A stretch of 49,524 nucleotides of DNA from an uncultured Spartobacteria bacterium (GTDB taxonomy: Bacteria; Verrucomicrobiota; Verrucomicrobiia; Chthoniobacterales; Terrimicrobiaceae): assembly GCA_937919825.1 (NCBI GenBank), contig CALFPA010000088.1, positions 1-49,524 on the forward strand. Reading direction: 5' to 3'. The stretch's first letter is position 1, and each line of letters starts with the position of its first letter. Made by a program: the position numbers and the translations under genes. Shown here piece after piece: positions 46,207 to 49,350 of this stretch. The notes under the pieces are model-generated. The model did not search any database and was not told where the DNA came from. It saw nothing but the letters and a program-made list of their open reading frames with translations.

Positions 46207-46245
46207 GCGGGGGCGCTTCGGCAACGGGGCGCCCCCGGCCTTTTT
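46207..46245 (+). terminator. Intrinsic terminator of rnpB
   Basis: GGGGGCGC (46209-46216) and GCGCCCCC (46229-46236) form the stem; CGGCC then five T follow directly. It sits right behind the RNase P RNA. Confidence 0.85.
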
Positions 46246-46352
46246 GAAAAAAACAATCGGGCCGTTAAAGCTTGCGAGATCGAATGGGTGTGATTTTTTT
46301 AGCGAATCTTTAGGTTTTGAATTTCTCGTGAATCTTCCCCCCCCTTCCCGCC

Positions 46353-46457
46353 ATGGACACGCTAGGGAACTTTGGCTTCAAATCAGCCACTCCCCTCGCT
46401 CCGCATGTCGAGGCGTTTCAGAAAAAACTGTTGAAAAAAACACCCCTTGATGACTGA
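46353..46457 (+). CDS. Possible 34-residue leader ORF overlapping the kinase start
   Basis: ATG 46353 opens MDTLGNFGFKSATPLAPHVE followed by AFQKKLLKKTPLDD, ending at TGA 46457, eight bases inside the kinase gene that starts at ATG 46450. Overlap of stop and start could couple the two, and the space otherwise holds no gene. No Shine-Dalgarno is seen and the size is near chance, so this stays a weak call. Confidence 0.3.
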   Translation: MDTLGNFGFKSATPLAPHVEAFQKKLLKKTPLDD

Positions 46458-48795
46458 AGAAAATTACCAATCAAAAAACCTGTTGGAATCCCTGCCTCCC
46501 GACCAACTGGCACATCTATCATCCCTTCTTGAACCCCGATCCATACCTGCCGGAACCCGCCTGATGGAGGAGGGCGAGCAGGGGGATGGCTGTTATTTCA
46601 TAGATTCCGGGAAGGTCCGTGTGCAGTTGGAGAAAAATCGTGATAATGGCCCTCTCCTCCTGGGGTATATCTCTCCAGGGGGAGTCGTCGGAGAGATGAA
46701 TCTCATGGGGATGCCCACTCGTTCCGCGAGCGTCTACGCAGAGACGGATGTCACACTGCGCTGGCTCTCCTTGGAAAAGTTTACATCGCTCAAGAACTCA
46801 CATCCCGAGCTGCAAAGCTCATTGATAAGTCTATTTTCAGAAGACATTACCAGAAAAGTCCGGAGCACTGAAAAAAGCCTCAGCGAGAACAATCATTCCA
46901 GCGGTGCATCCAGCAAATCCGATGCGATTTCATCAGATACGATTTCCGAATCCGAACGGCAATTTATCGCGAATGGTCGCTACGCTCTCGATCGACTTCT
47001 AGGCAAAGGTGGCGCTGGAGCCGTTTATCTCGCCTACGATACGAGGCTGGACCGATGGGTTGCGATCAAACGCATGCCGTCCTCCGATTCGACGATATCG
47101 GGGGAAGCGAAGCTCATGGCTAGCTTTCAGCACCCTAATATCGTGACGATGCACGACATTCTTCAGGAGGGAGATGAAACGATTTTTGTGATGGAATTGG
47201 TGTTGGGGCAGACGCTCGAGGATTTGGCCGAGCCGCTGACCGAGGACACCTTTCGGAATTTGGCGGCGCAATGCCTTGAGGGGCTCTCCGCCGCACACGA
47301 GAAAAATATCGTCCATCGCGACATCAAGCCCAGCAACATCATGCTAGCCGCCGAGCAGGACGGCCAATATTGCGTGAAAATCCTCGATTTCGGCCAATCC
47401 CGCACGATGGAAGCTCCCTCGCTTCAGACCATGGATCATTCAGGCGCAGTCGTCGGGTCGATTTACATGATATCACCCGAGCAATTGAGCCGCGAGGCCC
47501 TTGACGCCCGCACGGATCTCTACTCTTTGGGGTGCGTTTTTTATCAAGCCCTCACTCTGCAAAGACCATTCAGCGGCTCAAGTTTTCCAGAGGTGATTGC
47601 CGCCCATTTGCGGCACCAATTCAAGCCCCTGGGTGACCTGCGCCCCGACCTTCCAAAATCGCTGACGGATTGGGTGGAAAAATTGTTCTCGTTAGATCGC
47701 CAGGATCGGCCGGCTAATTCGCAGACGGCGCTGGAAGACCTCAAGTCCACAACCGCTCCGGAGAAGGTTCACATTGTTTCGAGTGTCACAAAAAACATCT
47801 CGGTGGTGCCCGCGCCGGTTCTGAAGCGTGTATCAGTTTTGCAGATTCCGCTAGACCCGATTGCCGTCGTGACGAAGGCGCCCACTCCTTCTGCACTGGT
47901 TCGCGTTAATGCGATCGCCAAACCCACTTTGGTGGTTGCATCAGCGCCGCCGGAACAGCTTCTCAAACCTAAACCAGAGCCGGTGGTAGCGCCGATTTAT
48001 GTGGAGCCGATCGCTGACGTAGTTCCAGTCATTGCAGCGGTTCCCACACCAGTTGCTAAACCAGTCCCAACCCAGCCGGTAACGGTTGCCGTTTCCAAGC
48101 CTCTTTCCACCCAGCAAAATGTGTTTTTGGCGCGGACTCCTCAACCTCAGCCCGTGGACCCTTCCTTTTGGAACTCCACACCGCAGCCCACATCGAAAAT
48201 CTCTCTTGCCAAAGTGGGGATTGCGATTGGGGCTGCTGTTGTTCTTCTGGCGGCAGGTGGCTTTGTGGGATTCACGATATTTGGCTCCAAGTTGCCACCA
48301 GGGTTCGAGTCGCTCGTTAAGCCGGATTTATCCAATATGGTGTTGAATCCCAAAGCATGGTCCTTGGATGGCGATACTTTGGAATATTCAGGTAAAGGCG
48401 ATGCCTGCTGGACCAAAGAGCAATACAGGAATTTCCAAATGGAATTTGAAGTCCAACTCCCCAAGGGTGGAAATTCTGGCGTTTTCTTTCGTGGCAAAAA
48501 CCCAAAAACAAACATAGCAGACTTGGCTACCTTGGAACTGGAACTCATCGACGGCGGTGCCGCCGGCGAGCTGATTAAACAGAAAAACCTGAAACAACCG
48601 CTCGCTATCGCCGACGGGAAGTGGCACCGATTTTCCATTCTGGCCAAAGACAACTCGATCACCGTCTCCCACAATGGCAAGGAACTCTACACAGCCAAGC
48701 TTGCCAACCCGAAGCTGAACAAGGAGGGACACATAGGTTTTCAAGGATGGTTGGGAGCTGTGAAATATCGGAACATCGCCATCAAAAAACTTTAA
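46450..48795 (+). CDS. Membrane Ser/Thr protein kinase with cyclic-nucleotide domain and DUF1080 ectodomain
   Basis: A 781-residue multi-domain protein. Residues ~10-140: cyclic-nucleotide-binding fold, with phosphate-binding-cassette residues Glu82 and Arg91 in GEMNLMGMPTRSASVYA. Residues ~178-430: Hanks-type kinase with GKGGAG (185-190), Lys207 in VAIKR, Asp291 in VHRDIKPSN, DFG at 313-315, and ISPEQ in place of APE. Residues ~435-585: Pro/Val-rich linker. Residues ~587-611: a single membrane helix. Residues ~620-781: a DUF1080-type jelly roll (FQMEFEVQLPKGGNSGVFFR, DGKWHRFSILA). An active kinase facing the cytoplasm with a glycan-like ectodomain outside is inferred. ATG 46450 is preferred over TTG 46447. 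Confidence 0.87.
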   Translation: MTEENYQSKNLLESLPPDQLAHLSSLLEPRSIPAGTRLMEEGEQGDGCYFIDSGKVRVQLEKNRDNGPLLLGYISPGGVVGEMNLMGMPTRSASVYAETDVTLRWLSLEKFTSLKNSHPELQSSLISLFSEDITRKVRSTEKSLSENNHSSGASSKSDAISSDTISESERQFIANGRYALDRLLGKGGAGAVYLAYDTRLDRWVAIKRMPSSDSTISGEAKLMASFQHPNIVTMHDILQEGDETIFVMELVLGQTLEDLAEPLTEDTFRNLAAQCLEGLSAAHEKNIVHRDIKPSNIMLAAEQDGQYCVKILDFGQSRTMEAPSLQTMDHSGAVVGSIYMISPEQLSREALDARTDLYSLGCVFYQALTLQRPFSGSSFPEVIAAHLRHQFKPLGDLRPDLPKSLTDWVEKLFSLDRQDRPANSQTALEDLKSTTAPEKVHIVSSVTKNISVVPAPVLKRVSVLQIPLDPIAVVTKAPTPSALVRVNAIAKPTLVVASAPPEQLLKPKPEPVVAPIYVEPIADVVPVIAAVPTPVAKPVPTQPVTVAVSKPLSTQQNVFLARTPQPQPVDPSFWNSTPQPTSKISLAKVGIAIGAAVVLLAAGGFVGFTIFGSKLPPGFESLVKPDLSNMVLNPKAWSLDGDTLEYSGKGDACWTKEQYRNFQMEFEVQLPKGGNSGVFFRGKNPKTNIADLATLELELIDGGAAGELIKQKNLKQPLAIADGKWHRFSILAKDNSITVSHNGKELYTAKLANPKLNKEGHIGFQGWLGAVKYRNIAIKKL

Positions 48796-48828: not shown

Positions 48829-49350
48829 ATGAGCCCAGAAAATACCACTAAAAAAACGAGCCTCTTGATCACGGGCATTATAATCGCACTCTTTCTCATC
48901 GGTGGAGGCATCGGCGTGTTTCTTGCCACCACCGGCCAAAGCGAGCCACCTGAAACCATTGACTTGGATCAAGAGATCTTGCCGGATGTGAACTCCGTGC
49001 CAAAGGACAAACCCCTCCCGCCTGCTCCGAAAGAGGTGGTCTTGAAGCAAATGAAGTATTACGAGATAGGACCTAAAGACCTTCTAATATTTGATAACGA
49101 AAAAGATGGAAATATCACGCGCATTGAGTTCCGCACATACTGGGAGAATAATTTCCGTCAACTAGATCGTAACAAAGATGGAAAACTCGTTCCTAAAGAA
49201 TGGGGGCACCGTGCATTCAAAGGAGTGGATCTCGACAAGAATGGCAACTTGGAAAGTCAGGAGTGGATGCGTTTCCGCGGTTGGTGCTTCGACACATTCT
49301 ACGACTCGGATAAGGACGGAATCGCTGTTCCCGGGGAGTGGAAAAAATAG
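48829..49350 (+). CDS. Membrane-anchored protein with four EF-hand loops
   Basis: A 173-residue protein: short basic N-terminus, a single membrane helix at ~11-33 (LLITGIIIALFLIGGGIGVF), a Pro-rich linker, then four EF-hand loops with acidic positions kept: DNEKDGNITRIE (89-100), DRNKDGKLVPKE (113-124), DLDKNGNLESQE (134-145) and DSDKDGIAVPGE (159-170). Calcium binding outside the membrane is likely. It follows the kinase by 33 bases in the same direction with similar lower-GC composition, so a common operon is plausible. I do not know a named family. Confidence 0.82.
   Translation: MSPENTTKKTSLLITGIIIALFLIGGGIGVFLATTGQSEPPETIDLDQEILPDVNSVPKDKPLPPAPKEVVLKQMKYYEIGPKDLLIFDNEKDGNITRIEFRTYWENNFRQLDRNKDGKLVPKEWGHRAFKGVDLDKNGNLESQEWMRFRGWCFDTFYDSDKDGIAVPGEWKK

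Follow-up and report, generated by a model that had tools for sequence, protein, structure and literature searches.

We know of no bacterial Ser/Thr kinase that has been demonstrated to be switched directly by cAMP, and none is described in the literature that we searched. In the mycobacterial protein Pat (Rv0998/MSMEG_5458) an N-terminal CRP-like cyclic-nucleotide-binding domain (CNBD) activates the fused acetyltransferase upon cAMP binding (PMC8556138). For Planctomycetota, a kinase survey reports that, among domains lying exclusively outside in kinases with a single transmembrane (TM) helix, DUF1080 is the most frequent, and that CNBDs are also present on kinases (PMC11032199); this survey was the sole account of bacterial CNBD-kinase fusions found in our literature search. 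The protein described here is a real, unusual combination of known parts in a rare order. It brings the cyclic-nucleotide and Ser/Thr kinase systems together in one chain with what would be an outside sensor, its binding residues are kept, and there are cyclases in the cell; it is thus a test case for the independent evolution of a cAMP-dependent kinase in bacteria.

Gene layout, kinase domain and neighbourhood

The window, by which we mean the whole stretch of DNA analysed, is the entire contig G000:C88 (49,524 bp) of a 2.7 Mb genome that is 99% complete. A single ORF at 46450 to 48795 on the + strand, with an ATG start at 46450 (alternatively TTG at 46447), encodes a protein of 781 residues in the order CNBD, PknB-like Ser/Thr kinase, Val/Pro/Ala-rich linker, TM helix and DUF1080; the ORF and the Pfam matches agree with the preliminary description, which had given this ORF and named these same parts. 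The CNBD spans amino acids 10–149 (46477–46896, + strand; Pfam, AlphaFold, CRP-like fold) and consists of a PF00027 core at amino acids 30–116 (E 9e-16, 58 bits against a cut-off of 27.5) and a long C-helix at amino acids 119–149. A Ser-rich linker of 25 residues (46897–46971, + strand), which ends in SESERQFIANGRYALDR, connects it to the Hanks-type kinase domain (46972–47742, + strand; PF00069 at amino acids 178–425, E 2e-47). Beyond the kinase lie a 150-residue linker of 19% Val, 18% Pro and 11% Ala (amino acids 441–590; 47770–48219, + strand), one TM helix predicted from hydropathy and sequence at about amino acids 589–611 (48214–48282, + strand), and a compact DUF1080 domain at amino acids 626–781 (48325–48792, + strand; PF06439 at amino acids 647–779, E 1e-23, 84.6 bits against a gathering cut-off of 26.8). 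All three Pfam domain matches are far beyond chance. DUF1080 is predicted to lie outside the membrane because the kinase is taken to be inside and one helix separates the two. An assembly chimera was considered and rejected, since the frame is continuous and the kinase start at the fusion point matches that of its relatives.

The kinase domain has its G-loop GKGGAG (amino acid 185), VAIK (Lys207), HRDIKPSN (289), DFG (313) and SPE (342) motifs, and with all catalytic motifs present it is predicted to be active. Its best solved relatives are bacterial PknB-type kinases (top match 138 bits), and PKG, the eukaryotic cGMP-dependent kinase, is absent among the best 60 solved kinase matches listed; the PknB PASTA kinase model NF033483 scores 233 bits, under its curated cut-off of 450, and PASTA repeats give no match. 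The genus holds a family of related kinases, the nearest of which are 66–68% identical across the kinase domain, and in a kinase tree the window protein falls inside a clade of nine (support 100/99) whose members differ in their outer parts: DUF1080 in G011, regions unmatched in Pfam in G001 and G008, and none in G000:C84 and G003:C42. No CNBD was found on the other kinases of this clade, three loci of which are cut by contig ends. A congener kinase, G011:C4 (558 amino acids), has the kinase-TM-DUF1080 arrangement with the same kind of linker, and is 64% identical in the kinase core and 44% in DUF1080; unlike the window protein it begins at the kinase and has no CNBD, and a homologue of the EF-hand gene described below is absent from the G011 genome. 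The CNBD-less relatives start with MSNEVERVFIGNGRYALDR or a similar sequence, and the window protein has SESERQFIANGRYALDR at this point, after the CNBD; the N-terminal residues of the relatives are thus kept at the fusion point, indicating that the CNBD was joined in front of a pre-existing kinase start. On these comparisons, the genus probably had the kinase-TM-DUF1080 core first, and the CNBD was added in front of it later. A recent duplication of the C84 paralogue was rejected as the origin of the window kinase, as the two are 57% identical and the window kinase has its own branch in the tree.

Thirty-three bp past the kinase stop, a gene at 48829 to 49350 (+ strand; ORF list, Pfam) encodes a 173 amino acid protein with a TM helix and EF-hand repeats, and is probably co-transcribed with the kinase gene. 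This kinase-then-EF-hand pair recurs at G000:C84, where the EF-hand partner is 50% identical; the two membrane-anchored EF-hand proteins (window 48829–49350 and G000:C84:1584-2111) both lie beside kinases of the same family. In the sequence, a G+C-rich hairpin with a T-run after it (46210–46246) borders the kinase/EF-hand cassette on the left. The nearest relative, G003, is 93.7% identical across window 39028 to about 46251; the match ends just past the hairpin, and the repeat that forms the end of the window contig (49366–49524, delimited by comparison with G003) follows there within about 85 bp. G003 thus lacks the cassette at the corresponding site, and either an insertion in the window genome or a deletion in G003 accounts for the difference; no copy of the window kinase was found elsewhere in G003. 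The window contig and G003 contig C32 both end in the repeat, of which there is one copy in the window genome and two in G003 (end of C32 and start of C2, which begins with it). We note that in congeners the repeat units, about 138 bp long, are arranged in tandem (G003:C32:12-200, G003:C2:1-258 and G011:C1:103873-104165), and that the repeat sits at contig ends and beside variable gene content.

The cyclic-nucleotide-binding domain and its relatives

The cassette sequence of the CNBD is GVVGEMNLMGMPTRSASVYAET; the phosphate-binding cassette as placed at 46687 to 46743 (+ strand), VGEMNLMGMPTRSASVYAE, carries Glu82, Arg91 and Ser92 together with an unusual Asn84. Glu82 and Arg91, correctly numbered in the preliminary description, are invariant with Gly81 in an alignment of 40 bacterial CNBDs, and since these sequences were chosen by similarity to the window CNBD, the invariance indicates a pocket normal for the type and is not proof that each member binds cAMP. 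Asn84, two residues after the cassette Glu, is Ser, Ala or Gly in the other 39 domains; it might crowd the phosphate, and this casts real doubt on cyclic-nucleotide binding. The residue directly after the cassette Arg is Thr in cGMP-selective domains and Ser in CRP, and the window protein has Ser92 there, as in CRP; in a hand alignment, Thr140 in the C-helix corresponds to CRP Thr127. The AlphaFold model of the domain (pLDDT 91.8, pTM 0.84) superimposes on CLP, Vfr, CAP-cAMP, GlxR and MtbCRP with Z 16–18 and an rmsd of about 2.2 over 130–138 residues, and its helix 119–149 continues as in CRP dimers. The best structural match is Xanthomonas CLP, a CRP-fold protein that responds to c-di-GMP, so the CRP fold is no proof of cAMP. 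Two of the four CNBDs of the genome, one in an FHA-CNBD protein (C30) and one in a C84 protein, have no cassette Arg, which indicates that CNBDs here are able to lose nucleotide binding. The first of these (L049) has the arrangement FHA-CNBD-TM-coiled-coil and the second (L051) is a small CNBD protein; their Arg-less cassettes are GEVSIFDPSGAMCS and GEVDIFDPSTAICS, respectively, and similar ones are present in congeners (L162, L166). A stand-alone CNBD of 157 amino acids at G000:C52 (L048) has an intact pocket and lies immediately upstream of an lpxC-fabZ-fusion-like ORF.

A PF00211 search of the genome for cyclase genes, a check proposed in the preliminary description, returned three cyclase domains of class III. 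Two of them, in a CHASE2 cyclase (C122) and a Cache/HAMP cyclase (C94), have a complete set of active-site residues, namely both metal Asp, the Lys/Thr pair that we take to be associated with ATP, and the Asn/Arg pair (roles presumed from knowledge of the family); the third domain (C23) has lost the first Asp motif. Judged by these residues, two adenylate cyclases of the genome look intact. As far as sequence and model allow, neither a CNBD lacking its binding pocket nor a sign of kinase inactivation was found. The earlier suggestion that a bacterial kinase gated by cAMP or cGMP is conceivable gains from the pocket residues, the CRP-like fold, the intact kinase and the two cyclases, which make such control plausible, if unproven.

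The architecture was surveyed, again as the preliminary description had suggested, in 387 genomes of the phylum by a CNBD profile search followed by reading of about 70 loci, and the order CNBD-kinase-TM-DUF1080 proved rare there, its parts being known. Eight kinase-CNBD proteins were found in five genomes (G168, G179, G363, G369 and G397), all with the kinase first, and at least four genomes (G011, G069, G242 and G251) have kinases fused to DUF1080. The kinase-first loci (L088, L095, L109, L110, L114, L116, L126 and L130) are spread over several families within the phylum; the GE...R cassette is kept in every one of them, and some have an extra C-terminal region past the CNBD. When amino acids 1–440 were searched against the 387 genomes (E 1e-33), with four candidates scored per genome, only the query's own match reached into the CNBD; this search could overlook a fusion so divergent that it does not align in a single piece. 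A whole-protein scan of genome contigs gave 18 pattern matches and no confirmed relative, and a plasmid collection gave kinase-only matches of 37–40%, none spanning the CNBD among the matches listed. Two regular-expression CNBD matches, L042 (a frame without a CNBD) and L043 (a histidine kinase), were rejected by the profile search.

A second CNBD scan, whose queries were the window CNBD and its nearest relative and whose two short peptide patterns bias it to such sequences, found N-terminal CNBDs on phosphonopyruvate-decarboxylase-like TPP enzymes (43% identity) and on acylating aldehyde dehydrogenases (33–37% identity). A 52-CNBD tree groups the window domain, which sits on a long branch of 1.26 changes per site, with five enzyme-fused CNBDs (L236, L062 and L238–L240; support 100/99), and in it the six sampled CNBDs of reverse-order kinases form a separate clade (100/100). 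This separation of the two kinase fusions is independent of the peptide-pattern bias of the scan, and it points to a window fusion that arose independently of the reverse-order kinase-CNBD proteins. The CNBD-enzyme fusions (L236, L062/L237, L238, L239 and L240) occur in Verrucomicrobiota, Chloroflexota and Alphaproteobacteria, and the aldehyde dehydrogenases among them are SauS/EutE-like; through such proteins, cyclic nucleotides might directly control the metabolism of sulfonates/phosphonates or aldehydes. In the LacPavin MAG (L240:583-5779) three adjacent ORFs, encoding a patatin-like phospholipase, an NDH2-type oxidoreductase and an aldehyde dehydrogenase, each have a CNBD, that of the oxidoreductase being cut at the ORF end.

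The DUF1080 ectodomain

The model of the DUF1080 domain (pLDDT 83, with low confidence at model residues 80–87) matches the DUF1080 protein 3s5q (Z 19.5), the 3-keto-glycoside enzymes 8tda, 8rr2 and 9fbe (Z 17–18, rmsd 2.0) and the carbohydrate-binding module CBM66 4azz (Z 17.6, rmsd 2.5). At 156 amino acids it is short compared with the 197–264 of most solved DUF1080 proteins, and CBM66 has about 165. The family His (15 of 17 relatives) is Leu768 here, the family Gln (14 of 17) is Glu698, and a W/NPDG loop present in 14–16 of the 17 is deleted, so the His, Gln and loop set of the BT2157-like 3-keto-glycoside eliminases/hydratases, conserved positions that are assigned as family features only, is absent; Glu667, Glu696, Gln765 and Arg774 are retained. 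The G011 kinase ectodomain shares the His to Leu and Gln to Glu changes. With these conserved features gone, ligand binding is likelier than catalysis, and on sequence and model the term lectin-like ectodomain suits the domain better than hydrolase. Glycan sensing, as put forward in the preliminary description, is accordingly left plausible by the fold, which is that of the 3-keto-glycoside enzymes and CBM66, and the glycoside-hydrolase character suggested along with it does not fit so compact a domain with conserved polar features missing. DUF1080 enzymes have been tied to 3-keto-disaccharides (PMC9007349), and by analogy keto-glycans are possible ligands.

Interpretation and comparison with known systems

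The domain anatomy is observed directly; nucleotide binding, gating and an outer ligand are what we infer. We lean, tentatively, towards a two-input transmembrane Ser/Thr kinase that would respond to a cyclic nucleotide, likeliest cAMP, inside and through a lectin-like DUF1080 domain outside. The ligand of the CNBD would be a cyclic mononucleotide, in the likeliest case cAMP supplied by the class III adenylate cyclases of the same cell, and its binding would move or dimerise the long CRP-type C-helix, which runs via the 25-residue Ser-rich linker into the kinase N-lobe and so could alter kinase activity; the outer domain would bind a (keto-)glycan or wall sugar in the manner of a lectin and would not be an enzyme. 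The narrower proposal of a receptor kinase gated by cAMP inside and glycan outside, which arose by a fusion independent of PKG and of the reverse-order kinases and carries a CNBD of the type seen elsewhere on metabolic enzymes, is a rather doubtful one.

It is also conceivable, if somewhat unlikely, that the CNBD has no cyclic-nucleotide role, its CRP fold offering instead a scaffold for dimerisation or protein contact or a site for another ligand, and that the main switch of the kinase is external, by DUF1080-driven clustering as in PknB-type receptors. Asn84 in the cassette, the existence of CRP-fold proteins with other ligands (CLP), the loss of the pocket in other CNBDs of the window genome and the kinase relatives without any CNBD would all fit such a scaffold; however, Gly81, Glu82, Arg91 and Ser92 are all kept on a branch of 1.26 changes per site, which argues for a selected pocket, and the genome has cyclases. 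The cassette might instead be a lineage-specific accident, recently acquired or decaying and of unsettled function. We think this improbable: the CNBD-kinase protein is present in only one of the 16 genus genomes, G003 has no cassette at the same site, and the cassette is 51.6% G+C and the remainder of the contig 59.4% (a low value is also seen in the C84 EF-hand gene), but the 781-codon frame is open, each of its three domains has intact motifs, the EF-hand partner gene is open too, and the pair recurs at the paralogous C84 locus.

The chance that DUF1080 works in the periplasm as a kinase-tethered 3-keto-glycoside eliminase/hydratase that senses its substrate via turnover appears small, as the enzyme fold and the four retained polar residues are offset by the His to Leu and Gln to Glu changes, the deleted loop and the short domain. 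It is very improbable that the protein is a bacterial PKG in which a cyclic nucleotide lifts a pseudosubstrate block exactly as in the eukaryotic cGMP-dependent kinase. As in PKG, a CNBD precedes a protein kinase in one chain, and the PKG and PKA regulatory CNBDs are among the best solved CNBD matches (phmmer). However, PKG has two CNBDs and the window protein a single PF00027 stretch; PKG has an inhibitory N-terminus and zipper, and the window protein about 10 residues ahead of its first CNBD helix, too few for an inhibitory segment; and PKG is a soluble AGC kinase, whereas the window kinase is PknB-like and has a membrane helix, so that three of the four features tested for PKG membership fail. 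Furthermore, the closest structures to the window CNBD are those of bacterial CRP and not of PKG, and in the CNBD tree the domain groups with enzyme-fused CNBDs of bacteria. Common descent of this architecture with PKG is rejected on CNBD number, N-terminus, kinase type, helix and fold, and the parallel to PKG drawn in the preliminary description, for which neither kinship nor a shared mechanism finds support, is superficial.

The two-input kinase that we tentatively favour shares single features with several bacterial systems. The enzyme-fused CNBDs are its nearest CNBD relatives found (33–43% identical) and are N-terminal like its own, with a metabolic enzyme as the fused partner in place of a kinase. 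The reverse-order proteins also have a Hanks kinase and a pocket-bearing CNBD in one chain, but their CNBD follows the kinase and belongs to another CNBD clade, whereas that of the window protein precedes it. These comparisons suggest an exchange of CNBD modules between metabolic enzymes and kinases, and more than one CNBD-kinase fusion, in both orders, within a single phylum. The planctomycete single-TM kinases, like the window protein, have the kinase inside, one helix and DUF1080 outside; the part of the survey consulted reports no CNBD on these DUF1080 kinases (PMC11032199), and the window DUF1080 is compact. Pat, finally, has an N-terminal CRP-like CNBD fused to a catalytic domain in a bacterium, as does the window protein; it is an acetyltransferase and not a kinase, and has no membrane helix or outer domain, but it is the closest proven analogue and, by that analogy, the best working model for the window CNBD.
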